In this document: positions 2,238-16,027 of the stretch, piece by piece
Numbering within the stretch: the first letter of the stretch is position 1
How the letters are laid out: each line of letters begins with the position of its first letter
Assembly (NCBI RefSeq): GCF_014359565.1
Contig: NZ_JACIZD010000003.1
Location: forward strand, 124,001-188,000
DNA length: 64,000 nucleotides
Direction of reading: 5' to 3'
DNA from: Immundisolibacter sp.
GTDB lineage: Bacteria; Pseudomonadota; Gammaproteobacteria; Immundisolibacterales; Immundisolibacteraceae
Made by a program: the position numbers and the translations under genes
Notes under the pieces: model-generated
What the model was told of the DNA's origin: nothing
The model's input: the letters and a program-made list of their open reading frames with translations, nothing else
Database searches by the model: none

Positions 2238-5200
2238 ATGAACGAGCCAGCTACTCACCACGATCCGTCGGCTTATAACGCCTTCTTTGTCAAGGCGAGC
2301 GGCGATTCGGGGGCGCGCCCTTTTTTGCAGGCGCATCCTTGGCAGGGTGAGCTTGGGCAAGGCGGCGCGTGTTGCGACCGTCTTATTCGCATTCCCACGG
2401 GGTTTGGCAAAACACTGGGTGTGCTGGTCGCGTGGTTGTGGCACCGCGTGGCGCGTGGTGACGACGCCTGGCCAATGCGGCTGGTGTGGTGTTTGCCGAT
2501 GCGAGTTCTTGTCGAGCAAACCGAGGCGGAGGTTCGGGATGTTTTGCGACGTCTGGATCGGTTGTGGGACCAGCGGGGTAACCACGACAGCAAGGTCGGC
2601 GTGCATTTGCTCATGGGTGGCGCCATAGCGGGCGACTGGCATCTTTACCCGGAGCACCCGGCAGTGCTGATCGGCACCCAGGACATGTTGTTGTCGCGGG
2701 CGCTGAACCGCGGTTACGGAGTACCGCGTGCGCGCTGGCCCATGGAATTCGGTCTGCTCAATCAGGATTGCCTGTGGGTGATGGACGAGGTGCAGCTCAT
2801 GGATGTGGGCCTGGCCACGTCCGGGCAGTTGCAGGCGTTTCGGCGTGACGATGCTCAGACCGGGAAGGGCATCCGCCCGTGCCGGACCTGGTGGATGAGT
2901 GCCACCTTGCAGCCGTCCTGGTTGAAGGCCAGCCCGGAAATGACGGCGCTGGGTGCAGACCTGGAACGCGGGCAGACCCGCATTGCGCCCGCCCAGCGCG
3001 TCGGTCCGCTGTGGGACGATGTCCAGAAGCCCTGTCGGTTACTTGCGCTGCCAGATGGCGCCGTGCTGGCAAGACGCGTCGCTGCTGCGCATATCGAACA
3101 CGACTGCGGTCGTAAAGGTCCCACCGTCGTGGTGGTCAACACCGTCAAGACGGCAGTCGAGGTCCACGCCCATCTCAAGCGCGACACTGCCCTGGCGGGC
3201 ATTGAACTGAGGCTGGTGCACAGTCGCTTCCGGGGCGCCGAACGCGCGGCGTGGCGCGAGGAGTTTCTGAACCGCACAGCGTGCGCACCCGGTACGGACC
3301 GCATCATCGTCGCCACGCAGGTCATCGAGGCCGGCGTGGATATGTCTGCTGGCCTGCTGTTTACCGAACTCGCGCCTTGGGCCAGCCTCGTGCAGCGCTT
3401 CGGCCGGGCGGCTCGGTGGGGCGGAACAGCGCTAGTGGAGGTTATCGACTTCCAGCCGGTCAACGATAAGGCGGCCTTGCCTTACACGCTGGCCGAACTG
3501 GACGCCGCGCGTTCTGCGCTGTCGCGGCTCGACTCCGTCGCACCGCGCGACCTGGAGACCTTCGAGGAAACAAACCCGCAATTGCTCGAAAGCCTTTATC
3601 CATATGCCCCACGTCATCTGCTGCTGAGGCACGAGCTCGACGAGCTGTTCGACACCACACCCGACCTGAGCGGCGCGGATGTAGATATTTCGCGTTTCAT
3701 CCGGTCCGGAGAGGAGCGCGACCTTCAGGTTTTCTGGGTCGATATCGATCCGGACACCGCCCCGGATGCCATGCTGCGGCCATCACGCGACGCGCTGTGT
3801 GCTGTGCCGTTCCTGGCAGCCCGAGACTGGCTGTGCGGTAAGGAAACCAGCACCAAGAAAGCCCCGCGCCTGGCGGAGAAGAAACGTGCCTGGGTCTGGA
3901 GTTATCTGGACGGCGAGTGGCGGCGTGCGGAACGCAAGGACCTGTATCCCGGTCAGACGGTGCTGGTTGCGGCAGATACCGCCGGCTACCAGCCAGACGT
4001 CGGCTGGTCGCCCGCCAGCACTGCGCCGGTTCCTCCGGTGGCGATGGTTGCGCCCAGTCCGGAAGAACAGGCCGACTCCAGCGAAGACGATGAAGCGCTG
4101 AGCGCTGGCATTCGCTGGCAGACCATCGCCGTACATGGCGCGCAGGTCGGGAATACAGCGGCTGACGCGGCGCAGTCGCTTGGCCTGGACCTTCCCTCGC
4201 TGTTGCAGCTTGCCGGCCGCTGGCACGACGCTGGCAAGGCCCTGCCGCCATTCCAGAACTCCATGTGCAGCGCCAGCCGCCCGGCCCGCACCGATCTGGC
4301 CAAGGCGCCGAAGGATGCGTGGCTAGCCCCGCACCAGCTTTACCCGGACCCGCCCCATGCCCGCCGCCGTGGCCTGCGGCACGAACTCGCCAGCACGCTG
4401 GCCCTGTTCGCCGTGCTGATGCGCCATCAGCCAGACCACCCGGCGTTGCTCGGCCCCTGGCGTGGCCTGCTGGACGCCGCCGGGATTCAGGCGGCGCCGG
4501 TTTCAGTCGCCGCTGATTCGCCCAATTCCCTCGAGCAGGAAATACTGGACCTGAACGCCGATGACTTCGACCTGCTGGCCTATCTGGTGTGCAGCCATCA
4601 CGGCAAGGTACGCATGGCCTGGCACGCGTCCCCGGCAGACCAGCAGGCCGCTGACCGCACGCTGCGCATTTGTGGCGTGCGCGATGGCGAGGTTCTTCCC
4701 TCCCTGCCGCTGGCCACCGCCGACGGCCAGTATCTGAACCTGCCCGCCAGCGAACTGCGCCTGGATGCATCTGCCGCCGGCCTGAATCCGCGCACCGGCC
4801 GTGGCTGGACCGAACGAGTACTCAATCTGCTGAACCGCCACGGTCCCTTTGCGCTGGCGTATCTGGAGGCATTACTGCGCGCTGCCGACCAGCGCGCCTC
4901 ACGCAATCCCGTTGGCGATCCCCTGTTGGAGGCAGACAATGCAGCCCATGGACTTGGAACAAGTCATCGAGAACTGGCGCAGATTGTCGGCGGCGGAACG
5001 CCGCCTTCGGCATCTGCGCGCGATCCCGCGTCACGTGGCGAACTCCATGGCGATGGAGAACGAGCCGGTGAGCGAGCAACTCATCCGCGATCAGTTGAAG
5101 CATCGGATTCCAGCACTCGACGAATCGTCACCTCCCTCGGCGAACTGAGTTACGCCGATCTGGCGCCGCATTTGGCAGAGCGCATTGGTCTGCTGGAAGC

Positions 5201-5687
5201 CGACATTGCCGACCGCCTGTACGGTGCCCGGCCGCTAGACGAATCGCTGCTCCTCGACTTCCATCGGCGCCTGTGTGGCGATCTGGTGCCGGATATTGCT
5301 GGTCGTTGGCGCAGTACCGAGGTGCAGGTCGGCGCGCACCTGCCACCACCGGCATGGCAAGTGCCAATGCAAATGCGCGAGTTTTGCGCCGATCTGGCCG
5401 CACGCGTCGCACACGCCCCCAGCTGGAGCGCGGATGTGCTGCTGGAGCTGCTGGTGTTCGCAGAAGGCCGTCTGCTGCACATCCATCCTTTCGCCGATTT
5501 CAACGGTCGGCTTACGCGTTTGTTCCTGCTCGAATTGTTGTATCGGCTTGAACTTCCCATCGTCGACACCGCCGTTTCGAGCGAGGCGGAGCGGCAGGAG
5601 TACTTCGCCGCCTTGCGTGCTTACGATGCAGACGATCCGGCCCCACTCACCGCTGTCTGGCGCCATCGCTTTGAGCAGGAGGTTTGA
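2238..5687 (+). CDS. cas3: Type I-G Cas3 helicase-nuclease with C-terminal Fic domain in the same frame
   Basis: An uninterrupted 1149-codon frame. The N-terminal two-thirds is an SF2 helicase: PTGFGKT (residues 53-59), DEVQ (about 182), SAT (about 220), and IEAGVDMS followed by QRFGRAAR (about 386). An HD nuclease follows (WHDAGK near 661, SHHGKVR further on). The helicase-then-HD order is typical of type I-G Cas3. After LEALLRAADQRASRNP the frame passes through about 60 low-complexity residues and enters a Fic domain with HPFADFNGRLTR (about 1083-1094). This keeps the catalytic His, acidic, Asn and Arg positions of HxFx(D/E)GNGRxxR, with Phe in place of the first Gly. Cas3 unwinds and degrades targets recruited by the Csx17 complex; Fic domains transfer AMP to proteins. 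Whether cells make one fused protein is unclear, because a separate small gene overlaps the junction. csx17 follows 2 bases after the stop. Confidence 0.88.
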   Translation: MNEPATHHDPSAYNAFFVKASGDSGARPFLQAHPWQGELGQGGACCDRLIRIPTGFGKTLGVLVAWLWHRVARGDDAWPMRLVWCLPMRVLVEQTEAEVRDVLRRLDRLWDQRGNHDSKVGVHLLMGGAIAGDWHLYPEHPAVLIGTQDMLLSRALNRGYGVPRARWPMEFGLLNQDCLWVMDEVQLMDVGLATSGQLQAFRRDDAQTGKGIRPCRTWWMSATLQPSWLKASPEMTALGADLERGQTRIAPAQRVGPLWDDVQKPCRLLALPDGAVLARRVAAAHIEHDCGRKGPTVVVVNTVKTAVEVHAHLKRDTALAGIELRLVHSRFRGAERAAWREEFLNRTACAPGTDRIIVATQVIEAGVDMSAGLLFTELAPWASLVQRFGRAARWGGTALVEVIDFQPVNDKAALPYTLAELDAARSALSRLDSVAPRDLETFEETNPQLLESLYPYAPRHLLLRHELDELFDTTPDLSGADVDISRFIRSGEERDLQVFWVDIDPDTAPDAMLRPSRDALCAVPFLAARDWLCGKETSTKKAPRLAEKKRAWVWSYLDGEWRRAERKDLYPGQTVLVAADTAGYQPDVGWSPASTAPVPPVAMVAPSPEEQADSSEDDEALSAGIRWQTIAVHGAQVGNTAADAAQSLGLDLPSLLQLAGRWHDAGKALPPFQNSMCSASRPARTDLAKAPKDAWLAPHQLYPDPPHARRRGLRHELASTLALFAVLMRHQPDHPALLGPWRGLLDAAGIQAAPVSVAADSPNSLEQEILDLNADDFDLLAYLVCSHHGKVRMAWHASPADQQAADRTLRICGVRDGEVLPSLPLATADGQYLNLPASELRLDASAAGLNPRTGRGWTERVLNLLNRHGPFALAYLEALLRAADQRASRNPVGDPLLEADNAAHGLGTSHRELAQIVGGGTPPSASARDPASRGELHGDGERAGERATHPRSVEASDSSTRRIVTSLGELSYADLAPHLAERIGLLEADIADRLYGARPLDESLLLDFHRRLCGDLVPDIAGRWRSTEVQVGAHLPPPAWQVPMQMREFCADLAARVAHAPSWSADVLLELLVFAEGRLLHIHPFADFNGRLTRLFLLELLYRLELPIVDTAVSSEAERQEYFAALRAYDADDPAPLTAVWRHRFEQEV
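4939..5148 (+). CDS. Fic-antitoxin-like small protein nested out of frame in cas3
   Basis: A 69-codon gene in the +1 frame relative to cas3. It has a strong ribosome binding site GGAGG at 4928-4932, six bases before ATG 4939. The product is rich in charged helix-formers (DLEQVIENWRRLSAAERRLR) and contains SMAMEN at residues 36-41. This fits the (S/T)xxxE(G/N) inhibitory motif with which Fic antitoxins such as VbhA block ATP binding by their cognate Fic enzyme. It lies immediately upstream of the Fic domain, the usual antitoxin-then-toxin order of class I Fic modules, and its TGA at 5146-5148 overlaps a CTG in the Fic frame. Over the same bases the cas3 frame encodes a low-complexity stretch rich in Gly, Ser, Arg and Ala, which suggests selection acts on the small gene here. 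The alternative is a remnant of a class II Fic N-terminus displaced by frameshifts. Confidence 0.62.
   Translation: MQPMDLEQVIENWRRLSAAERRLRHLRAIPRHVANSMAMENEPVSEQLIRDQLKHRIPALDESSPPSAN
5145..5687 (+). other. Fic domain segment; possible independent reading from a CTG at the antitoxin stop
   Basis: This is the Fic part of the cas3 frame. It begins LSYADLAPHLAERIGLLEADIADRLYG and carries FHRRLCGDLVPDIAGRWR, then HPFADFNGRLTR. If the toxin were made separately, no ATG, GTG or TTG lies in frame between 5043 and 5171. The candidates are CTG 5145, which overlaps the nested gene's stop as CTGA, or TTG 5172. A CTG restart coupled to antitoxin termination would give about 180 residues, a normal size for a bare Fic domain. 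If neither start is used, the domain exists only as the tail of Cas3. Confidence 0.5.
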
Positions 5688-5689
5688 CC

Positions 5690-7906
5690 ATGATCCTGCA
5701 CCGACTCGACGGCTGCGCGCCCGTGCCGCTGGCGCATTACCTAAAGGCGCTGGGCATCCTGCGGCTGGTAGCCGAACAACTCGACCCCGAGGCGCGCGGC
5801 TGGTGGGAGGGTGAGCGTTTTTTTCTGGCCAGTCACAGCGACGAGGAAGAACTGCTGGCCTTCTTCCTGAACCGCTATGCACCAACGGCAATTGTGTCTC
5901 CGTGGAACAAGGGATCGGGATTTTTCTACATCAACGATCCGGGACTCGCTCCTGTAGAAGCTTCGGTTGCGCCTCGCCTGGCCCGTATCCGCGAGGGGAT
6001 CGGCGCAGCTCGAAGAATGCTCGACGCGATGAGCGCGGCTGACCAGCGCGTTCGGGCGATCAAGGAAGAAGTCAAGGACAAATCGCTCAGCAGGATCGAG
6101 CGCGAACAACTCAAAAAATCCGAGGATTACCGCAAACGCCTGGCCGATGCCGAGCGCCAAGTCAAACAGATTAAAACCAATCTGATGCCCGACTTGCGGC
6201 GGGAATGGCGCGGGTCGCACCGAGAGTGGATGGACGCCGCACTGGTGCTCGACGAGGTCGGCACAGCGCGTTTTCCAGCATTGCTGGGGACGGGCGGCAA
6301 CGATGGCCGCCTGGATTTCACCAACAACTACCTACAACGGCTTGGAGCGCTGTTTGATCTGTCGGCAGCGGGCGCGCCGGCCCGCCCCGAAGCGGTTGAA
6401 TCACTGCGCGAGGCGCTGTTCGGTGCTGTTGGGCGCAGCCGGACGTCCGGCGCCGGGGCTGGGCAGTTCGATCCCGGCGGTAATACAAACGCCTGGGATT
6501 TCATTCTCATGCTCGAAGGCGCGGTGATGTTCACAGCCGCAAGCACGCGGCGATTGAATACTCAGGGGGCCTCACGCGCCGCCGCGCCGTTCGCCATTTC
6601 GGCTCATGCGGCGGGGTACGCCAGCGCGTCTGATAGCGACGAAAGCGCCCGCGGCGAGCAATGGATGCCGCTATGGTCCCAGCCGATGACCTTTGTCGAA
6701 CTGCATCGGTTGCTGGCCGAAGGCCGGGCCCAGCTTGATGCTCAGACGGCAACCGAGCCGCTTGATCTTGCGCGGGCGGTCGCGCGTCTGGGCGTGGCGC
6801 GCGGCATTCACGCCTTCCAGCGCTATGGGTACATCGAGCGCAACGGCCAGTCCAATCTCGCCGTCCCCCTCGGCCGCTTCGTCGTGCCCGAGTATGCTGC
6901 GCCCACGCTGGCGTGCCTTGACGATCTCGATGCGTGGTTGCCGCGTTTGCGCCGCGAAGCGCGCCGTAAGGGGGTGCCGGCCCGGTTTACGCAGGCGGAG
7001 CGCCGGCTGGCCGATGTGCTGTTTGCCCTCACGCAACATCCGAACGAGCCGACGCGCTGGCAGACGGTGCTGCTTCGGCTGTCGGACATCGAGGCGCTTC
7101 AGGTGCATGGCATCGGGATCAACGCGGGGCCGATTCCGCGCTTGCGCCCCCAGTGGGCGCACGTGGCGGACGACGGTAGCCCGGAACTGCGTCTGGCGCT
7201 GGCGTTTGCCCTGCAATGTGCCGATGCGCGAGCGTCGAAGCGCGATGGCGTACGTCGGCACTGGCTTACCTTGGATAAAGGCCGTTTCCGCACCAGTGGC
7301 ACCGGCAGCGCACAGCGGTTAGCACCGGAAACCGACCGCGTCATGCAGGGCCGCAGTGGCGCCGATGACGCCCTCGCGCTGTTGTCGCGGCGAATGGTCG
7401 AGGCCGCTGCGCACGGCGAGCGCCGTTTGCCGCTGGAACCGGGTTTTGGCATCGCGGCCAGCCGCCACGACCTCGCGCGCCTGATTGCAGGCGAAGTGGA
7501 CCTAGATCGCTGCTTGAGTTTGGCGCGTGCCCTGATGGCGCTTGATGGCCGAGATTGCGCGGCACACCCGCCGCGTCTTGCAGCGCCGCCCGCCGACTGG
7601 CCAGACGATGCTTGGCTCACGATTCGCCTGGCCCTGCTGCCGTGGCCGCTGCCGGACGGCCGTCATGCTGGCGCGGACCCGGCCATCCTGCGGCGGCTGC
7701 AGGCGGGCGACGCCTCCGCGGCGGTCGGGCTGGCTATCCGTCGTCTGCGCGCGGCCGGCATTGCCAGCAACGTGCGCGCCGCCGCCACCGCGCCGGAGTT
7801 GGCGCGCCGCTATGCCGCAGCGCTGGCATTCCCGATTAGCCGCGATACAGCGGTCCGATTTGCTCACCGCCTCGCGCCTATTTTCGACCAGGAGAACGCC
7901 GCATGA
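5690..7906 (+). CDS. csx17: Csx17, large subunit (Cas8-like) of the type I-G effector
   Basis: A 738-residue protein from ATG 5690, chosen because AGGAGG at 5677-5682 lies seven bases upstream; a TTG at 5684 overlaps the cas3 stop and has poor spacing. Family hallmarks are the opening LHRLDGCAPVPLAHYLKALGILR and the block PTAIVSPWNKGSGF. The length matches other Csx17 proteins. In type I-G systems Csx17 takes the Cas8 place: it recognises the PAM and stabilises the R-loop. A charged, probably coiled region lies at about residues 105-165 (KEEVKDKSLSRIEREQLKK). Its stop overlaps the csb1 ATG by four bases, indicating translational coupling. Confidence 0.9.
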   Translation: MILHRLDGCAPVPLAHYLKALGILRLVAEQLDPEARGWWEGERFFLASHSDEEELLAFFLNRYAPTAIVSPWNKGSGFFYINDPGLAPVEASVAPRLARIREGIGAARRMLDAMSAADQRVRAIKEEVKDKSLSRIEREQLKKSEDYRKRLADAERQVKQIKTNLMPDLRREWRGSHREWMDAALVLDEVGTARFPALLGTGGNDGRLDFTNNYLQRLGALFDLSAAGAPARPEAVESLREALFGAVGRSRTSGAGAGQFDPGGNTNAWDFILMLEGAVMFTAASTRRLNTQGASRAAAPFAISAHAAGYASASDSDESARGEQWMPLWSQPMTFVELHRLLAEGRAQLDAQTATEPLDLARAVARLGVARGIHAFQRYGYIERNGQSNLAVPLGRFVVPEYAAPTLACLDDLDAWLPRLRREARRKGVPARFTQAERRLADVLFALTQHPNEPTRWQTVLLRLSDIEALQVHGIGINAGPIPRLRPQWAHVADDGSPELRLALAFALQCADARASKRDGVRRHWLTLDKGRFRTSGTGSAQRLAPETDRVMQGRSGADDALALLSRRMVEAAAHGERRLPLEPGFGIAASRHDLARLIAGEVDLDRCLSLARALMALDGRDCAAHPPRLAAPPADWPDDAWLTIRLALLPWPLPDGRHAGADPAILRRLQAGDASAAVGLAIRRLRAAGIASNVRAAATAPELARRYAAALAFPISRDTAVRFAHRLAPIFDQENAA

Positions 7907-8970
7907 ACCTCGACCTTTCCCCGCTTGCCCATACCTCACGTCTGCTGTTTGAGATTCCGCTACGGCCCTTGCAAGGCCAGCGTTTTCAGCCCACCGGATT
8001 TCCGGGACTCGGTGCCGCCACCTTTCAGACCGCCGGCGGCTTGAGCCTGCTGGTGGAAAGCGCGCAGAGCATGGCCAATCGGCTGGAGCTGACTGGCTGG
8101 GATGAAGAAAAAAGCGATCTTAAACAAGAACTGCAAGGGTTGTCGCACGTGAGCGTCGTTCGCGGCGCAGGAAGTACTTCAAGAGATCGGGAGAACTCGG
8201 CAACTAAAGAGTTCCTCACCGACAGTGTCACCGAGGCGCATCGATTAAACAGCCCGTACATCATGTTCGGAAAGGTCAATGGTCAGCTATTTTTTGACGA
8301 ACTTGGCGAGCGGCTAAATGCTTTTGAAGTCGGCCCACTTCCAAGCAGGAAGCAAATTGCTGAGCACTTGATTCATTGGGATATCGGGACGCTTTTGCAC
8401 GGCGTGTTTCTTTCTGCGAAAAAGGGTAAGGACAAAACATTGGCCGGCGGCCGTCTGCGGCTCGCTCGCGCGTTGTCCGCCTTCATCGAAGCCGACGAGG
8501 CGCGCCCCGCGGCGTCTGGCGGGGTCAAGAACGATCACGTAAATCCCAGCGGCGACACCAAGGCCGGGTTTGGCAATGTGCCATTTGCCCGGGACGAGTT
8601 CACTGCCGACCGCATCACGCTGTACGTCAACCTCGATCTGGGCCAGATCCGCGGGTACGGTCTAGGCGCGGACGTAGAGCGACTTCTGACGCTTTTGGCC
8701 CTGTACAAGCTGCGCGTGCTGGTGGACGGCTCGCTGCGCCTGCGCACCGCGTGCGACCTGGAACCGGCCACCGATCGGATCGAGGCCCGTCGCCCGGCAT
8801 CGTTTCTGTTGCCGGACGCGTCCGCTCTGGCCGAGGCCCTGCAGCCCGCCATCGCAGCCTGCCGGGCGCTGATGACCGTCACCGAAGTTCGCTTTGATGA
8901 CGATCTCAAGAAGGCCAAGGACAGCGAGAAAGCCGAAGCCGACGACGACCAGGAAACCGACGGGGAGTGA
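7903..8970 (+). CDS. csb1: Csb1, Cas7-type backbone subunit (GSU0053 family)
   Basis: A 355-residue protein whose ATG overlaps the csx17 stop as ATGA, with CAGGAG just upstream. Family signs are LLFEIPLRPLQGQRFQPTGFPGLGAA at the start (an RNA-binding loop region in Cas7 folds), ESAQSMANRLE, and the block LNSPYIMFG. Csb1 polymerises along the crRNA spacer and forms the backbone of the surveillance complex. The C-terminus is acidic and charged (DDDLKKAKDSEKAEADDDQETDGE), likely a flexible tail. csb2 begins four bases after the stop. Confidence 0.9.
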   Translation: MNLDLSPLAHTSRLLFEIPLRPLQGQRFQPTGFPGLGAATFQTAGGLSLLVESAQSMANRLELTGWDEEKSDLKQELQGLSHVSVVRGAGSTSRDRENSATKEFLTDSVTEAHRLNSPYIMFGKVNGQLFFDELGERLNAFEVGPLPSRKQIAEHLIHWDIGTLLHGVFLSAKKGKDKTLAGGRLRLARALSAFIEADEARPAASGGVKNDHVNPSGDTKAGFGNVPFARDEFTADRITLYVNLDLGQIRGYGLGADVERLLTLLALYKLRVLVDGSLRLRTACDLEPATDRIEARRPASFLLPDASALAEALQPAIAACRALMTVTEVRFDDDLKKAKDSEKAEADDDQETDGE

Positions 8971-8974
8971 TCCC

Positions 8975-10582
8975 ATGCCGACCTTGTGGATTCGTTTCCC
9001 CGGCCGGCGTTACCACGCCACGCCATGGGGCCATCATGTCAATGAAGGCTTGGTTGAATGGCCGCCTTCGCCGTGGCGCTTGCTGCGCGCCCTGATTGCC
9101 ACTGGCTACGCCAAACTGCACTGGTCCACCGACGGCCCGCCCTCGATCGCCCGCACCCTGATCGAAAAGCTTGCCAGCACGGCGCCAAGGTATCGATTGC
9201 CCCCGGCGGTCGGCGCCCATAGCCGCCACTATATGCCGCTGGCTCGCTTCAAGAACGGGCGCGAAGACACCACCCTGGTGTTCGATACCTGGGCGCAGGT
9301 GGACGACGGTGAACTTGGCGTGCAGTGGGCTGTGGCGCTGGCGAATGACGAACGGGCGTTGCTAGCCGAACTGGCGCAGGCGCTCGGCTATCTCGGGCGC
9401 TCCGAAAGCTGGGTGGAAGCCGTGCTCGCGGATACTGACAACGCCGATGGTTTTGACGTGTTTGTCGGCGAAGCCCGCGATTGTCCGGGGCCTGGCTGGG
9501 AGCAGATAGCTCTGCTCGCGCCCCAATCGGCCGAGGATTACGTGCGGTGGCGAGCGCAGGCACTGGCCGATGCCCAGGCCCGCGCGGGTATCGATCCCGG
9601 CAAAGCCCGGCAACCGGCCGCGGAAAAGAAAAAAATGGCGGCGCTAGAACAGACGCTGCCACCGGACCTCATTGCCTGCTTGCAGGTGGATACCGCCTGG
9701 CTGCACCGGCTGGGCTGGAGCCAGCCGCCCGGCAGTCGCAAGCTGTTTTACTGGCGGCGCAGCGAGAGTCTGGTGCCGGCAGCCCCGAAGCCGCGCTTCC
9801 GGACCAGTCGCAGTGCGCCCGTGTCGTGCATGCTGCTTGCCTTGAACCACGGTAGCGGCAACCACGGTGCTCTGCCGCGCTTGGAACGTGCGCTACCGCA
9901 AGGTGAGTTGCTCCACCGCAGCTTGGTGGCTCAGGCTAGCCGTCTGGCGGGGCACTCGGTGGTGCTCAGCGGCTGCGATGAGCAACGCAAACCGCTCGCT
10001 ACGCCGCACCAGCACGCCCACCTGATCCACCTGGACCTGGATGGTGACGGCCGTCTCGACCACGTGCTGATTTGGGCGCCGATGGGCCTGGATGACGCGG
10101 CACAGGCAGCGGTGCGCGCCACCCGGCGCAGCTACACCAAAGGCACGGGGGCGTTGCATCTGGCCTTGGCAGGAAGTGGGGACTGGATCGATCTTGCCAG
10201 CTTGCCGGACCCGTTTGGCCCGCGCCTGCGCGCCTTGGCAGGCAATGACACCGAAGGCGCAAACCACTGGCGCTCGCTGACACCATTCGTGCCGCCGCGC
10301 CATTTGAAGGTACGTGGCCGCAATAGCTTGGTTGGACAAATCAATGCCGAGCTCGCCAGTCGCGGCATGCCTGACGCACTTTCGGTCTGTGTTTTTGATC
10401 CCCACACTGACGACGAAGCCCGTCAGGCGCGCCATTTCAAACGCGTGCGCAGACACGGGGCGCCGCCGGCGCAGGATGTCGGCTTCGTGTTGGAGCTGGG
10501 GTTCGCTGATCCGGTTCGGGGACCCATCGTGCTGGGCTATGGCTGTCACTACGGCCTGGGCGTATTCGGCGCGGTCAAATGA
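8975..10582 (+). CDS. csb2: Csb2, Cas5-Cas6-type subunit (GSU0054 family)
   Basis: A 535-residue protein from ATG 8975. GGGGAG at 8962-8967 supplies the ribosome binding site, and a longer upstream extension of the frame runs inside csb1 and is rejected. The N-terminal domain LWIRFPGRRYHATPWGHHVNEGLVEWPPSPWRLLRALIATGY is the Csb2 signature and corresponds to a Cas5-like fold. The C-terminal half, with repeated His residues (HLIHLDLDGDGRLDHVL and SVCVFDPHTDDEARQARHFKRVRR), should be the Cas6-like part that cuts pre-crRNA at the repeat hairpin. There is no separate cas6 in the locus, which agrees with this. It is the last gene of the interference operon. Confidence 0.88.
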   Translation: MPTLWIRFPGRRYHATPWGHHVNEGLVEWPPSPWRLLRALIATGYAKLHWSTDGPPSIARTLIEKLASTAPRYRLPPAVGAHSRHYMPLARFKNGREDTTLVFDTWAQVDDGELGVQWAVALANDERALLAELAQALGYLGRSESWVEAVLADTDNADGFDVFVGEARDCPGPGWEQIALLAPQSAEDYVRWRAQALADAQARAGIDPGKARQPAAEKKKMAALEQTLPPDLIACLQVDTAWLHRLGWSQPPGSRKLFYWRRSESLVPAAPKPRFRTSRSAPVSCMLLALNHGSGNHGALPRLERALPQGELLHRSLVAQASRLAGHSVVLSGCDEQRKPLATPHQHAHLIHLDLDGDGRLDHVLIWAPMGLDDAAQAAVRATRRSYTKGTGALHLALAGSGDWIDLASLPDPFGPRLRALAGNDTEGANHWRSLTPFVPPRHLKVRGRNSLVGQINAELASRGMPDALSVCVFDPHTDDEARQARHFKRVRRHGAPPAQDVGFVLELGFADPVRGPIVLGYGCHYGLGVFGAVK

Positions 10583-10656: not shown

Positions 10657-11025
10657 TCACACCCCATACGGCACCACCACCTCCAACCCGGCGCCGCTGC
10701 GAAAGTCGCGCGTGTTGCGCGTGACCAGCGCCAGGCCGTGGTGCATCGCCAGCGCCGCCTGGAAGGCATCGGGCAGTTTCCAGCGTTCGCTGCGGCGCAG
10801 GCGGGCGGCGAGGTCCGCAATGTCCAGCGTGATCGGCAGCGTGGGGAACAGGTCCAGCAGCTCGCGCGCCAGCGCCGTGTGCGTGTCGTCAAAGCCGGCC
10901 AGCACTTCGGCGCGGGTGATCACCGATACCGCGCAATCGGCGCCGTGTGCCGACAGGTATCGGGTCGCCGGCTCGATGCCGTTCAGGTGGTCGATGACGA
11001 TCACCGAGTCCAGCAGCCGTGTCAC
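10657..11025 (-). CDS. PIN-domain toxin, VapC-like
   Basis: A 122-residue protein from GTG 11025, whose codon overlaps the antitoxin stop as GTGA, so the two are translationally coupled. PIN features are LLDSVIVIDHLNG (first acidic residue after a beta strand), VITRAEVLAGF (conserved Glu), LRRSERWKLPDAFQAALAMHHGLALVTRNTRDF (the Asp of PDA, plus the T-R-N-x-x-D-F ending). VapC enzymes are Mg-dependent RNases that cut tRNA or rRNA and arrest growth. A longer frame upstream of 11025 only reads through the antitoxin. The pair runs against the cas genes and sits exactly between the interference and adaptation modules. Confidence 0.88.
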   Translation of the reverse strand: MTRLLDSVIVIDHLNGIEPATRYLSAHGADCAVSVITRAEVLAGFDDTHTALARELLDLFPTLPITLDIADLAARLRRSERWKLPDAFQAALAMHHGLALVTRNTRDFRSGAGLEVVVPYGV

Positions 11026-11267
11026 GCGTCGTCGTTCCACTCGCCCCGCAGGCGCTGCTGCCAGGCCAGTCCATCCCCGTGTCGCCACAGGCCCGCGGTA
11101 CGCGCCAGCACTTCCTCCAGCGCCGGTCGGGCCTGGCTTTGTTCGCGCAGGCGGTAGCTGTGCACCGCCTGGCGCACCAGTTCGGTCATCGGCAGCTTGC
11201 GCCGGCGCGCCTCCTGGTCCAGCCAGGCCTTGTCGTCGGGATCCAGATTGACCAGTGTTTTTGGCAT
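11022..11267 (-). CDS. Ribbon-helix-helix antitoxin, VapB/CopG-like
   Basis: An 81-residue protein from ATG 11267. The N-terminus KTLVNLDPDDKAWLDQEARRRKLPMTELVRQAVHSYR is a ribbon-helix-helix DNA-binding domain: a beta strand, two helices and the conserved turn before MTELVR. The C-terminal 35 residues (ALEEVLARTAGLWRHGDGLAWQQRLRGEWNDDA) would wrap the PIN toxin. The antitoxin precedes its toxin and overlaps it by four bases, the usual VapBC arrangement. It probably represses its own promoter through sites just upstream (GATATC repeats at 11276 and 11298). Confidence 0.88.
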   Translation of the reverse strand: MPKTLVNLDPDDKAWLDQEARRRKLPMTELVRQAVHSYRLREQSQARPALEEVLARTAGLWRHGDGLAWQQRLRGEWNDDA

Positions 11268-11303: not shown

Positions 11304-11406
11304 GGTTGGTCCATTGTCGGCCAGATTGAAGGGCGTTTCCAGGCGTCGACCGGGCGCCCCCACCGATAAGCCAAGCGACCAGGCAGGCTGCCAGAGGAGG
11401 ACGAGC

Positions 11407-13131
11407 TTGGACACCTACGATCCGCCCAACGACCGCCAGCCCGAGCTGCTGCTGCCATTCCCGGAGCTGTCCGGCGACCAGCCGCTGCTGCCGGCGCGCA
11501 TGGTCAACGAATACCAGTACTGCCCGCGCCTGGCGTATCTGGAATGGGTGCAGGGCGAGTGGGCCGAATCGGTGGACACGGTCGACGGCCGCTACCGGCA
11601 CCGGCGGGTGGACAAGCCTTCGGGCGATCTGCCGGACCCGGGCGATTCGCCGCCCATGGAGCCGCAGCACGCGCGCTCCATCACCCTGTCATCCAACCGC
11701 CTGGGGCTGATTGCCCGCATGGACGTGGTGGAGGCCGACGGCACCGTCGCCACACCGGTGGATTACAAGCGCGGCAAGCGCCCGCACGTGGCCCGCGGCG
11801 CGTACGACCCGGAGCGCGTGCAGCTGTGCGTGCAGGGCATGATCCTGGAAGAACACGGTTTCGAGGTGCCCGAAGGCGCGCTGTACTTTGCGCAGAGCAA
11901 GGAGCGCGTGCGCGTGGAGTTTGACGACGACCTGCGCGCGCTGACCCGCAGCGCCGTGGATGGCCTGCGCCACATCGCCGCCGGCGGGCAGATTCCGCCA
12001 CCGCTGGTGGACAGCCCCAAGTGTCCGCGCTGCTCGCTGGTCGGCATCTGCCTGCCGGACGAGGTGAACTTTCTGGCGCGCATGGCGTTGCCGCCCCGGC
12101 CACTGGCCGTGCCGCACGACGAAGCCATGCCGCTGTACGTCCAGGCGCGCGGCGCCAAGGTGACCAAGAGCGGCGAAACGCTGGAAGTGCACGTGGAAGA
12201 TCAAAAAGTCGCCACCGCGCGTCTTGGCGAGACTTCGCAGGTGGTACTGCAAGGCAGCGTCTATCTGACCACGCCGGCTCTGCACGAACTCATGGCGCGC
12301 GAAATTCCAGTCACCTGGCTGTCCTTCGGCGGCTGGTTTCTGGGCCACACCGTGGGCCTTGGCCACAAGAATGTGGAAATCCGCACCGCCCAGTACCGCG
12401 CCAGCTTCGACGATCGGCACTGCCTGCGCCTGGCGCGCGGCCTGGTGGTGGCCAAGATTCGCAACGCCCGCACGCTGCTGCGGCGCAACTGGAAGCGCGG
12501 TGAACTGCCCGAGCACCTGCTCGACGAGTTTCGGCGTGACGTCGAACAGGCCGACCGCGCCAGCAGCCTGCAAACCCTGCTTGGCATAGAAGGCAACGCC
12601 GCGGCACGTTATTTCCGCAATTTTCGGGAAATGCTGGGCGACGGGGACGGCGTCAGCGCCAGCTTCGACTTCGAAAAGCGCAATCGCAGGCCGCCGGCCG
12701 ATCCGGTCAACGCGCTGCTGTCCTACGCCTACAGCCTGCTCACGCGTGCCGTCACGGTGGCCTTGACGGCTGTGGGGTTCGATGCCTACCGCGGCTTTTA
12801 CCACCAGCCGCGCTACGGGCGGCCAGCCTTGGCGCTCGATCTCATGGAACCATTCCGGCCGTTGATTGCGGATTCCAGCGTCATCATGGCCATCAACAAC
12901 GCCGAACTGCGCCCAAGCGATTTTTTGAGCGTGGCAGGCTCGGTGTCGTTGACCAGTGATGGGCGCAAGCGCTTCATTGCCGGCTTCGAGCGCCGCCTGA
13001 TGCAGGAAGTCACGCATCCGCTGTTCGGATACCGGGTGAGCTACCGCCGGTTGCTCGAACTTCAGGCCCGCCTGCTCGCACGGCACTTGCTGGGCGAAAT
13101 ACCCGAATACCCCAACTTCATAACCCGCTGA
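11407..13131 (+). CDS. cas4-cas1: Cas4-Cas1 fusion, spacer acquisition nuclease/integrase
   Basis: A 574-residue protein. The start is TTG 11407, preceded by AGAGGAGG (11393-11400) with six bases of spacing; an in-frame extension to 11314 has no such site. The Cas4 domain (to about residue 220) shows a first cysteine in [13 protein letters not shown], catalytic acids and lysine around RMDVVEAD and VDYKRGKRP, and the closing cluster [10 protein letters not shown], as expected for an iron-sulfur RecB-like nuclease. The Cas1 domain follows with [10 protein letters not shown], the metal-binding Glu of [13 protein letters not shown], and the His and Asp of [22 protein letters not shown]. The fusion is characteristic of type I-G loci; Cas4 trims prespacers and selects those with a correct PAM. 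Its TGA overlaps the cas2 ATG. Confidence 0.93.
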
Positions 13132-13421
13132 TGGACGAACACCTTTACATCGTCACCTACGACATCGCCGACGATAAGCGTTGGCGGTCCGTGTTCAAGA
13201 TCATGAAGGGCTACGGGGAATGGCTGCAGCTTTCCGTGTTCCAGTGTCGCTTGTCGGCACGGCGCCACGCCGAGCTGATCGAGCTGCTCACCGGCGCCAT
13301 CAACAACCGGCACGATCATGTGCTATTGGTGGACATCGGCCCGGCCGAGCGGGTCACGCCGCGGGTGGTGAGCCTGGGTAAGAATTTTGAAGCGGTGGCA
13401 AAGGTGCCCGTCATCGTCTAG
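13131..13421 (+). CDS. cas2: Cas2, spacer acquisition subunit
   Basis: A 96-residue protein starting at the A of the cas4-cas1 stop (TGATG). The opening [38 protein letters not shown] is a textbook Cas2 ferredoxin-like start with the conserved Asp after the first strand. The [15 protein letters not shown] segment forms the later strands. A Cas2 dimer bridges two Cas1 dimers in the integrase complex. It is the last cas gene; the leader begins directly after it. Confidence 0.95.
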
Positions 13422-13647
13422 GAACTAGGCTGGATGGATGGAGCAAGTTGCCCCAGCCACGCGAGCGCTGCCCTGGTGCATTACGGACCGGCCAGCGCTC
13501 GCGCGGTATAGCTCTTTGAAAATTTGGAAAAAAATGGACCGACAAGGCAAAATCTCTCGGCCAGGTGGGCGTCGCAGGCACCGGCACACCAGACCGCTCG
13601 CGCGGACCTCTTGCAAACCGCAACCAGTAAGACGCTCAGAAGGGCCT
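13422..13647 (+). promoter_or_regulatory. CRISPR leader
   Basis: 226 bases between cas2 and the first repeat without a credible gene. It holds a perfect 11-base inverted repeat, CGCGAGCGCTG (13460-13470) and its complement (13493-13503), with a 22-base loop. An A/T-rich tract around 13510-13535 includes GAAAATTTGGAAAAAAATGG. This polarity (leader next to cas2, perfect repeats nearest, degenerate repeats at the far end) makes it the acquisition end and promoter of the array. No exact promoter could be fixed. Confidence 0.75.
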
Positions 13648-15995
13648 GTTTTCCGGGGCTGAATGCCCCGGCCTCATTGAAGCCAGCCGGCGTCGATGCC
13701 TTCCGGGACGTCGGGGAATAGTTTTCCGGGGCTGAATGCCCCGGCCTCATTGAAGCGCGGTCAGCAGTGCAATTACCGCCGTCAGCGGCGCGTTTTCCGG
13801 GGCTGAATGCCCCGGCCTCATTGAAGCTCCAGCGCGCCGCCGCCCTGGTTAATCAGCACCGCCAGTTTTCCGGGGCTGAATGCCCCGGCCTCATTGAAGC
13901 GGGATGATCGCCTTGCCAACCCTGCGGCTCAGTTCCGTTTTCCGGGGCTGAATGCCCCGGCCTCATTGAAGCCACCCCTTTGGCAGCGCCCACCCCGTCA
14001 CCGGCGAAGTTTTCCGGGGCTGAATGCCCCGGCCTCATTGAAGCCCATCCCTGCGGTGGTACTTGCTGTGCCTACGGGTGTTTTCCGGGGCTGAATGCCC
14101 CGGCCTCATTGAAGCGTCAACCGCGCGCGGCGCATCTTCGATGGCCAGGACAAGTTTTCCGGGGCTGAATGCCCCGGCCTCATTGAAGCCTGAACCGCTC
14201 CGGCTGGCGCAGCACGCCCGGTTGTGTTTTCCGGGGCTGAATGCCCCGGCCTCATTGAAGCGACTCCTTGCGCCTCGCGCGCGCATCCGCAGCCGCCTGT
14301 TTTCCGGGGCTGAATGCCCCGGCCTCATTGAAGCATCAAGTACGGACCCAGCCCTGGGGCGGTGTTCGTGCGTTTTCCGGGGCTGAATGCCCCGGCCTCA
14401 TTGAAGCTCGTCGCCCGTCTTGCCTTCTTCCATCGCGTCAAAGGTTTTCCGGGGCTGAATGCCCCGGCCTCATTGAAGCCGGTATCCGATGAGACTTGGC
14501 ATCAGCGCACCCCAGAGTTTTCCGGGGCTGAATGCCCCGGCCTCATTGAAGCCGGGGGCGCTCGGTGTTGGCGCGCACGCCGCGGCAGTTTTCCGGGGCT
14601 GAATGCCCCGGCCTCATTGAAGCTGGGATGCGTTTCTGAATTCGCCTTTTGCGAACGATGAGGTTTTCCGGGGCTGAATGCCCCGGCCTCATTGAAGCCC
14701 AGCGTCTGGCGGGCCTGCTGCATTGAGTAGATCGTTTTCCGGGGCTGAATGCCCCGGCCTCATTGAAGCCGCAGGCGGTTGGCGTCGGCGGCCTCGTAGT
14801 AGGCCAGGTTTTCCGGGGCTGAATGCCCCGGCCTCATTGAAGCCAGGCCGCGATGCGCCGCCCTGAGCCTCGGCGCGACGTTTTCCGGGGCTGAATGCCC
14901 CGGCCTCATTGAAGCCCACCTGCCCTGTCCGCACTGTGGCGCGCTGCAGCGGTTTGTTTTCCGGGGCTGAATGCCCCGGCCTCATTGAAGCTGCGGCCTA
15001 CTCCCTTATGGATGAAGAGGGAGTGGTGTTTTCCGGGGCTGAATGCCCCGGCCTCATTGAAGCGTGTGCGAGTACGCGCTGCGGCGGGTGGCGCACCGGC
15101 GTTTTCCGGGGCTGAATGCCCCGGCCTCATTGAAGCGGCAATCTGGACGTGCGCGAGATAAAGAACCAGGCGGTTTTCCGGGGCTGAATGCCCCGGCCTC
15201 ATTGAAGCGGCGGGCGCATGCGCCAGCGCACTTCGCCGCTGGGTTTTCCGGGGCTGAATGCCCCGGCCTCATTGAAGCGCGTCCCGCGGCGGCGTGTGGA
15301 CCACCACCGCCGCGTTTTCCGGGGCTGAATGCCCCGGCCTCATTGAAGCCCAAGGTCGATCACGGCATCCGCCATTTCCCACAAGTCGTTTTCCGGGGCT
15401 GAATGCCCCGGCCTCATTGAAGCAAGCAGCCCGGCGACGTGATCACCTGGACCAATGGCGTTTTCCGGGGCTGAATGCCCCGGCCTCATTGAAGCCCCAA
15501 ACATAGTGGACATCCGTAGCATCGTGGATAAGAGGTTTTCCGGGGCTGAATGCCCCGGCCTCATTGAAGCAACTTCTTCCCCTCGCCACCGGCCGTGGTT
15601 GCGCGGTTTTCCGGGGCTGAATGCCCCGGCCTCATTGAAGCATTGGTTCGGGTGCGCGTTATAACCGCATCGTCTGGTTTTCCGGGGCTGAATGCCCCGG
15701 CCTCATTGAAGCAACGACCTGCATCAGCTCGAATGCCGCCACGTGGTGGTTTTCTGGGGGCATTCCGCCCCGGCCTCATTGAAGCTGATATGCCTTGCCA
15801 GACCAATGTGCGGACTTCGCGGTTTTCCGTGGCATTCAGCCCCGGCCTCATTGAAGCGCCTGTCCGTACTTGCTAGACATGACGTTGCCGCTGGCGTTTT
15901 CCGGGGCATCCAGCCCCGGCCTCATTGAAGCGAGGCGTACCACGGCCTGTGCTCAACCCGCACCGGCGTTTTCCGGGGTATTCAGCCCCGGCCTC
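13648..15995 (+). CRISPR. Type I-G CRISPR array, 33 repeat units and 32 spacers
   Basis: The 36-base repeat begins GTTTTCC, carries a hairpin core CCGGGGCTGAATGCCCCGG (7-bp stem, 5-base loop) and ends CCTCATTGAAGC, the common ATTGAAG-type 3' handle. Repeats 1-29 (first at 13648-13683, 29th at 15677-15712) look identical by eye. Repeat 30 (15749-15785, 37 bases), 31 (15822-15857) and 32 (15896-15931) are diverged, and 33 (15968-15995) is truncated after GGCCTC. Spacers are 34-40 bases, mostly 35-38. Transcription is expected left to right from the leader next to cas2, with Csb2 cutting at the hairpin base. No two spacers looked alike. In the degenerate repeats the loop reads ATTCA or close to it instead of TGAAT. 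Confidence 0.98.
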
Positions 15996-15997
15996 GG

Positions 15998-16027
15998 CGT
16001 AGGGGCGATGCATGCATCGCCCCTACG
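15998..16027. repeat. Perfect 30-base palindrome after the array
   Basis: The half-site CGTAGGGGCGATGCA is followed directly by its reverse complement, starting two bases after the truncated last repeat. A second copy lies about 120 bases on. Such short palindromes behave like scattered REP or MITE-type elements; its placement suggests insertion into the old end of the array. Confidence 0.8.

Follow-up and report, generated by a model that had tools for sequence, protein, structure and literature searches.

In the class I Fic pairs VbhT-VbhA, EcFicT-EcFicA and Fic-1-AntF, a small helical antitoxin carrying the motif (S/T)xxxE(G/N) is encoded 5' of a toxin with the Fic fold. Fic genes next to cas genes were described in 2013, one of them, in Geobacter, forming an ordinary pair with a TIGR02612-type antitoxin (PMC3936711), and a coupling of immunity and dormancy was proposed in 2012, with no mention of a Fic-Cas3 fusion (PMC3506569). 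These two are the closest prior reports. Here we describe a locus of Immundisolibacter sp. which resembles the class I pairs in its antitoxin and in the Fic fold, and differs from them in layout: the antitoxin gene lies out of frame inside the reading frame of the toxin, and the Fic domain is the tail of a defence enzyme, the Cas3 protein (Cas3g) of a type I-G CRISPR (clustered regularly interspaced short palindromic repeats) system. The locus is contained in a stretch of 64,000 nucleotides (assembly GCF_014359565.1, contig NZ_JACIZD010000003.1, positions 124,001 to 188,000 of the forward strand), hereafter the window, whose features are listed in Table 1. It had been singled out in a reading made from the sequence alone (the sequence-only reading), which was followed up by computational analysis.

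Results

A Cas3-Fic fusion with a predicted antitoxin gene in the +1 frame

The fusion of Cas3 and Fic in one frame, noticed in the sequence-only reading, was borne out: a single uninterrupted open reading frame (ORF) runs from Cas3 into Fic. Its product matches the Cas3g family TIGR02621 with residues 13-889 (731 bits, cut-off 400) and the Pfam family Fic (PF02661) with residues 999-1101 (E 2e-11). The Cas3 catalytic residues K58 (Walker), D183-E184 and H663-D664 (HD) were invariant in 22 aligned fusion proteins. An AlphaFold2 model of the full fusion (22 sequences; predicted template modelling score, pTM, 0.72) consisted of a folded Cas3, a disordered stretch at residues 900-961 and a folded Fic domain, and both the PF02661 match and the predicted structure assign the C-terminal part to the Fic fold. 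In the linker the block means of the predicted local distance difference test (pLDDT) were 24-34 over residues 901-960. The predicted disordered stretch is the one translated from the DNA of the antitoxin gene. Judged by the model, the overprinted frame would demand little of its second product, the disordered linker.

The 69-codon gene that had been seen over the junction spans the linker and ends with a TGA at 5146-5148; the GGAGG is present at the described distance from its ATG. The pairing energy with the anti-Shine-Dalgarno sequence was -9.3 in the window, compared with a median of -5.8 for the fused loci and a background mean of -2.4, the value of each locus being the best among its candidate starts, a choice that favours the observed value somewhat. 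Good Shine-Dalgarno sites precede most of the nested starts and are placed within the last Cas3 codons. The hexapeptide SMAMEN, as had been stated, fits the Fic-inhibitory motif (S/T)xxxE(G/N), which is found in its strict form in 27 of the 29 type I-G Cas3-Fic loci described below. Residues W13, S36, M37, E40, E42 and V44 were invariant in the antitoxin family (45 sequences). The window antitoxin alone matched no Pfam, NCBIfam or PADLOC family. Since it lacks a match in these libraries and overlaps a larger gene, such an antitoxin is easily missed in annotation.

In two relatives, L066 (5785-6522) and L090 (5782-6513), the antitoxin is fused in cis, in frame at the N-terminus of Fic, as in class II-like proteins. 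The AlphaFold2 model of L066 (pLDDT 95.9, pTM 0.93) was superposable on human FICD 196-429 over its whole length from residue 1 (Z 24, 2.7 Å over 227 residues). The superposition, which concerns this relative and not the window protein, takes in the region of the FICD inhibitory helix. On VbhT the L066 model matched over the Fic part only (Z 17; class I Fic toxins gave Z 15-17), because VbhA is a separate chain there. VIA-align of the L066 model listed no VbhA chain, which carries no weight against a likeness to VbhA. In each of the three Fic classes the inhibitory glutamate stands in the way of competent ATP binding (PMC3667792). This role, taken together with the match to FICD including the inhibitory-helix region, supports an inhibitory function. 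The assignment of the nested protein to the class I Fic antitoxin type, as a predicted inhibitor of Fic, is supported.

Relatives of the fusion

To find relatives, one genome per species (84,980 genomes) was scanned with the Fic alignment. All frames of the 62 loci obtained were examined for the antitoxin, and the loci were checked for cas genes of type I-G. Cas3 and Fic were in one frame in 29 type I-G loci, the window and 28 others from several phyla, and in all 29 the antitoxin was in the +1 frame of the linker. The sequence-only reading had suggested looking for C-terminal Fic domains and for the nested frame among type I-G Cas3 homologues; the small frame was conserved wherever the fusion was present. 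Of the outcomes that this reading had named as refuting, neither a broken small frame nor a missing Fic fold was encountered. An assembly or frameshift artefact was rejected, since the 28 other loci have the same Cas3-Fic frame. Hosts include the isolates Thiocapsa roseopersicina DSM 217 and T. marina 5811 as well as Lysobacteraceae, Rubrivivax, Acidobacteriota and Verrucomicrobiota, several of the host names being metagenome-bin labels that may be wrong. Separate antitoxin and fic genes downstream of cas3 were absent from the type I-G loci found; in one such locus (L089) the frame is broken ahead of Fic. Alignments mixing antitoxin and Fic rows were misaligned and were excluded from use.

In a class-wide sample Cas3g exceeded the cut-off in 19 of 369 genomes, six of which carry the same Fic subfamily. 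Examples of unfused Cas3g proteins stop at about the place where the antitoxin starts in the fusions. A phylum-wide sample of 398 genomes gave a match only in the window's own genome at E 1e-25. Plasmids searched with the Fic domain yielded distant stand-alone Fic genes only, mostly from Rhodococcus (37% identity), the best of which looks degraded, and the search of viral contigs yielded a single weak relative.

Other arrangements were also encountered. Cas3, Fic and Csx17 share one frame of more than 1800 codons in L044 (3292-8808) and L057 (frame length 1885 aa), where the stop of Fic is missing as well. In L098 (5746-9372) the order is reversed: an antitoxin-overlapped Fic forms the N-terminal part of a single frame with another Cas3-like helicase. 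L034 and L010 lie 4.7 kb apart on the same contig and represent two antitoxin-Fic copies, one fused to Cas3 and one not. Next to the first Cas3-like protein, the type I-G loci L145 and L146 each encode another, longer one (1136 and 1033 codons).

Both frames of the overlap are conserved

Variability in the overlap was 0.32/0.30/0.48 at antitoxin codon positions 1/2/3 and followed the frame of the antitoxin, not that of Cas3-Fic. The flanks follow the long frame (0.28/0.17/0.55 in the Cas3 part and 0.28/0.17/0.53 in the Fic part). Mean amino acid identity across the overlap was 58.6% in the antitoxin frame versus 38.4% in the long frame. Stops across the overlap were found in the Cas3-Fic frame of none of 26 loci and in the third frame of 13. 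Over the antitoxin gene the Cas3-Fic frame was open in 29 of 29 loci; the mean probability for a single locus to be open by chance, estimated by synonymous recoding of the antitoxin with local codon usage, was 0.15. Judged by these patterns, both frames of the overlap are in use and the DNA is under dual-frame constraint. The proposal of a nested gene akin to the antitoxin genes of class I Fic pairs is supported, and both frames are conserved across phyla.

The same layout in type IIG restriction-methylase fusions

Among Nitrospirota, 24 of 246 genomes had a match; here, and in one bin labelled Deltaproteobacteria, the same Fic subfamily was detected in frame behind a large restriction-modification protein. 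The partner protein matches the Pfam families Eco57I, TaqI_C and HSDR_N and is classified as type IIG by PADLOC (719 bits for L132). In the 15 loci examined (L124-L134, L138, L086, L088 and L093) the antitoxin was always in the +1 frame and the long frame always free of stops; the third frame had 3-10 stops in each. Chance openness of the individual loci was 0.00-0.09 (mean 0.03) and did not exceed 0.002 in four AT-rich loci. Codon-position variability in the overlap (0.13/0.12/0.31) again followed the antitoxin. Openness of the AT-rich loci answers the objection that may be raised for GC-rich DNA, where frames are open by chance. The presence of the nested layout in both Cas3g-Fic and IIG-Fic indicates that it recurs, joined to two unrelated defence enzymes. 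On balance we favour a general, CRISPR-independent design in which Fic is welded to unrelated DNA-targeting immune enzymes through linker DNA that also encodes the antitoxin in another frame. If this is true, one mRNA would yield an immune enzyme, a latent toxin and its inhibitor, expression of the toxin would require that of the enzyme, and mutations of the frame could not release it.

The start of Fic

In the window a CTG at 5145 overlaps the TGA of the antitoxin gene. From -90 to +24 of this position there is no ATG, GTG or TTG in frame; the first is the TTG at 5172 (+27), inside the Fic fold. Twenty-four loci, mainly from Verrucomicrobiota, were classed as having no fusion of Fic to a defence gene in front of it; 15 of them have a fic ATG inside or just after the 3' end of the antitoxin gene (at -63 in 13 loci and at -51 in two Corynebacterium), and the frame upstream usually contains stops. 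Only one of the 29 type I-G fusions retained an ATG at -75 to -51, and 22 of the 29, like all 15 IIG fusions, had no ATG, GTG or TTG from -90 to +12. The old fic start probably disappeared after translation of Fic had become continuous with that of Cas3. Because the stand-alone ATG is mostly gone from the fused loci, the fusion is probably the only form in which Fic is produced.

In some stand-alone loci (L054, L064, L083 and L092) the fic start is upstream of the antitoxin, so that the toxin gene encloses the entire antitoxin frame although no partner enzyme is attached. The stand-alone Fic gene of L054 immediately precedes a type I HsdM gene.

The type I-G operon

Besides Cas3g, the products of csx17, csb1 and csb2, encoded in one operon, scored over their cut-offs, and adaptation genes and a repeat array are present (Table 1). 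With csx17, csb1, csb2, cas4-cas1, cas2 and the array beside cas3g, the type I-G system of this locus appears to be complete. The start of csx17 is more likely the ATG at 5690, with the gene overlapping or abutting the stop of the fusion, and csb2 probably starts about 80 bases downstream of the listed position.

Table 1. Features of the type I-G locus, in window coordinates
Feature	Position	Strand	Evidence or remark
cas3g-fic fusion gene, 1149 aa	2238..5687	+	type I-G Cas3 helicase-HD nuclease, linker, C-terminal Fic; ORF, profile, AlphaFold2
GGAGG, Shine-Dalgarno-like, in last Cas3 codons	4928..4932	+	six bases before nested ATG
Cas3-Fic linker, DNA shared with antitoxin	4935..5123	+	AlphaFold2
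Nested antitoxin gene, 69 aa, +1 frame relative to Cas3-Fic	4939..5148	+	conservation, codon positions
SMAMEN, (S/T)xxxE(G/N) Fic-inhibitory motif	5044..5061	+	antitoxin frame
Fic domain part	5145..5684	+	profile match, start-codon scan
Fic motif HPFADFNGRLTR	5484..5519	+	sequence
csx17/cas8g	5684..7906	+	TIGR04113, 532 bits; start read from sequence
csb1/cas7g	7903..8970	+	TIGR02570
csb2 (cas5-cas6)	8894..10582	+	TIGR02165
cas4-cas1 fusion	11314..13131	+	NF049935, 827 bits
cas2	13131..13421	+	TIGR01573
CRISPR array, about 33 copies of GTTTTCCGGGGCTGAATGCCCCGGCCTCATTGAAGC	13645..16000, limits approximate	+	

A VapBC-like pair (10657-11267), consisting of a PIN toxin (10657-11088) and a ribbon-helix-helix antitoxin (11022-11267), is encoded on the opposite strand in the gap between csb2 and cas4-cas1, and represents the second toxin-antitoxin pair of the cas locus. 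The type I-G locus of Thioalkalivibrio likewise has two toxin-antitoxin pairs at the corresponding place (PMC9638904). The Fic domain part matches the PADLOC phage-defence candidate PDC-S04 (62 bits).

Discussion

We consider it likely that the fusion bears a latent Fic toxin on a defence enzyme, held back by the entangled antitoxin and serving as a back-up behind interference. Cas3 and Fic would be translated as one chain with a disordered linker between them; the mRNA would carry a separate ribosome site for the antitoxin, whose gene is conserved and whose expression is presumed. As suggested by the motif, the cis-fused relatives and the model, the antitoxin would bind the tethered Fic in trans, with the S-x-x-x-E-(G/N) helix over the nucleotide site; such a placement would parallel that of VbhA on VbhT or of the inhibitory helix of FICD. 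Interference by Cas3 would proceed with Fic silent. Should synthesis halt or the locus be lost, for example upon shut-off of the host by a phage, decay of the small antitoxin would come first and would leave the stable Cas3-Fic to become an active Fic transferase causing growth arrest.

The sequence-only reading had regarded interference and toxin as genetically locked together. This holds in part: an indel in the overlap would break both antitoxin and Fic, but a nonsense mutation upstream in cas3 would remove Fic and spare the antitoxin, unlike in a plain addiction module. Fic has no coding frame separate from that of Cas3, and disruption of the antitoxin by an indel would disrupt Fic as well; in this sense the layout seems fail-safe, and not a trap sprung by the loss of Cas3. 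It would guard the cell from accidental release and tie the level of the toxin to that of Cas3.

Several points weigh against a latent toxin of this kind. The release step is proposed by analogy, from general toxin-antitoxin logic only. Comparison of the antitoxin profile with the PDB gave no antitoxin chain up to E 10, only chance matches, and VbhA was not recovered. The type I-G Cas3-Fic loci are not independent, and the probabilities of openness were therefore not multiplied into a p-value; in their tree, the starred branches require a minimum of four switches between the fused and the other state. Single GC-rich loci have chance openness of 0.02-0.54. This last value would suit a Fic made separately, from CTG 5145, TTG 5172 or by re-initiation after the antitoxin stop, with the long frame being a by-product of the GC-rich overlap; the overlap of the CTG with the antitoxin TGA, and the few relatives that retain an ATG, GTG or TTG at -66, point the same way. 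We nevertheless think a separate Fic quite improbable, since all 44 loci are open, including loci of 37-41% GC at a chance of about 0.003 or less, the old start is gone from most fused loci, most stand-alone relatives have stops there, and in none of the fused loci does Cas3 end in a separate stop. That the nested frame is an unused open frame within a conserved linker is hardly credible: it was rejected by the codon-position variability, the higher identity lies in the antitoxin frame, and stand-alone and cis-fused versions of the antitoxin exist.

The chemistry of Fic raises another question. The canonical AMPylating motif is HxFx(D/E)GNGRxxR (PMC3667792). It does not fit HPFADFNGRLTR, and in 79 of the 82 members of the subfamily, whose motif is HPFxDFNGRxxR, Phe replaces the first Gly of GNG. 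AMPylation is therefore not assured, which also counts against the toxin reading, and the fold might no longer be an AMP transferase but another transferase or a regulated binding module with the nested protein as its partner. This appears doubtful, because the His, Asp, Asn, second Gly and both Arg are retained, and the invariant inhibitory Glu of the antitoxin family makes most sense given an activity to inhibit. A tentative, rather unlikely alternative is that Fic acts at the CRISPR target, the loading of Cas3 on invader DNA putatively displacing the antitoxin. Fic would then modify nearby proteins, either phage or host replication proteins or Cas proteins, in the latter case tuning Cas3. 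The covalent link to Cas3 in every type I-G locus found, and to the IIG enzymes, suggests that delivery to DNA matters, and both Cas3 and Fic remain intact; a tethered toxin is, however, equally consistent with simple stoichiometric coupling.

With the latent, antitoxin-restrained Fic as the preferred reading, the proposed coupling of adaptive immunity to programmed dormancy becomes directly testable in one gene, as the antitoxin start codon can be removed with Cas3-Fic unchanged. Cas3g-Fic expressed without the antitoxin could be toxic.

No Cas3-Fic fusion, type IIG-Fic fusion or out-of-frame antitoxin nested in the gene of its toxin was found in the open-access papers searched, and Fic goes unmentioned in the main text of the 2025 CRISPR classification. 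As far as found, the genetic arrangement is without precedent in that literature, in agreement with the sequence-only reading, which knew of no described example. The protein families are already known, and at the protein level the system is like a class I Fic pair, with the differences that the Fic motif is HPFxDFNGR and that the antitoxin has no sequence match to VbhA. The class II proteins FICD and SoFic are approached by the cis-fused relative L066; in the window, unlike in class II, the putative inhibitory part is a separate nested product outside the Fic chain. The type I-G systems of Thioalkalivibrio sulfidiphilus and Geobacter sulfurreducens share cas3g, csx17, csb1, csb2, cas4-1, cas2 and the array, but here Cas3 bears Fic. 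In CreTA, too, a toxin is tied to a type I CRISPR locus (PMC10097628, PMC9458426); its toxin is an RNA repressed by Cascade, with a crRNA-like antitoxin, whereas the parts found here are proteins, the putative toxin being fused to Cas3. In the synthetic entanglement of relE inside ilvA, a gene lies wholly within another in a different frame, stabilising a costly function (PMC10359631). That construct is engineered; the arrangement described here is natural, its entangled partner is the antitoxin, and it would be the counterpart of such engineering, a natural antitoxin overprinted in the gene of its own toxin and conserved across phyla.

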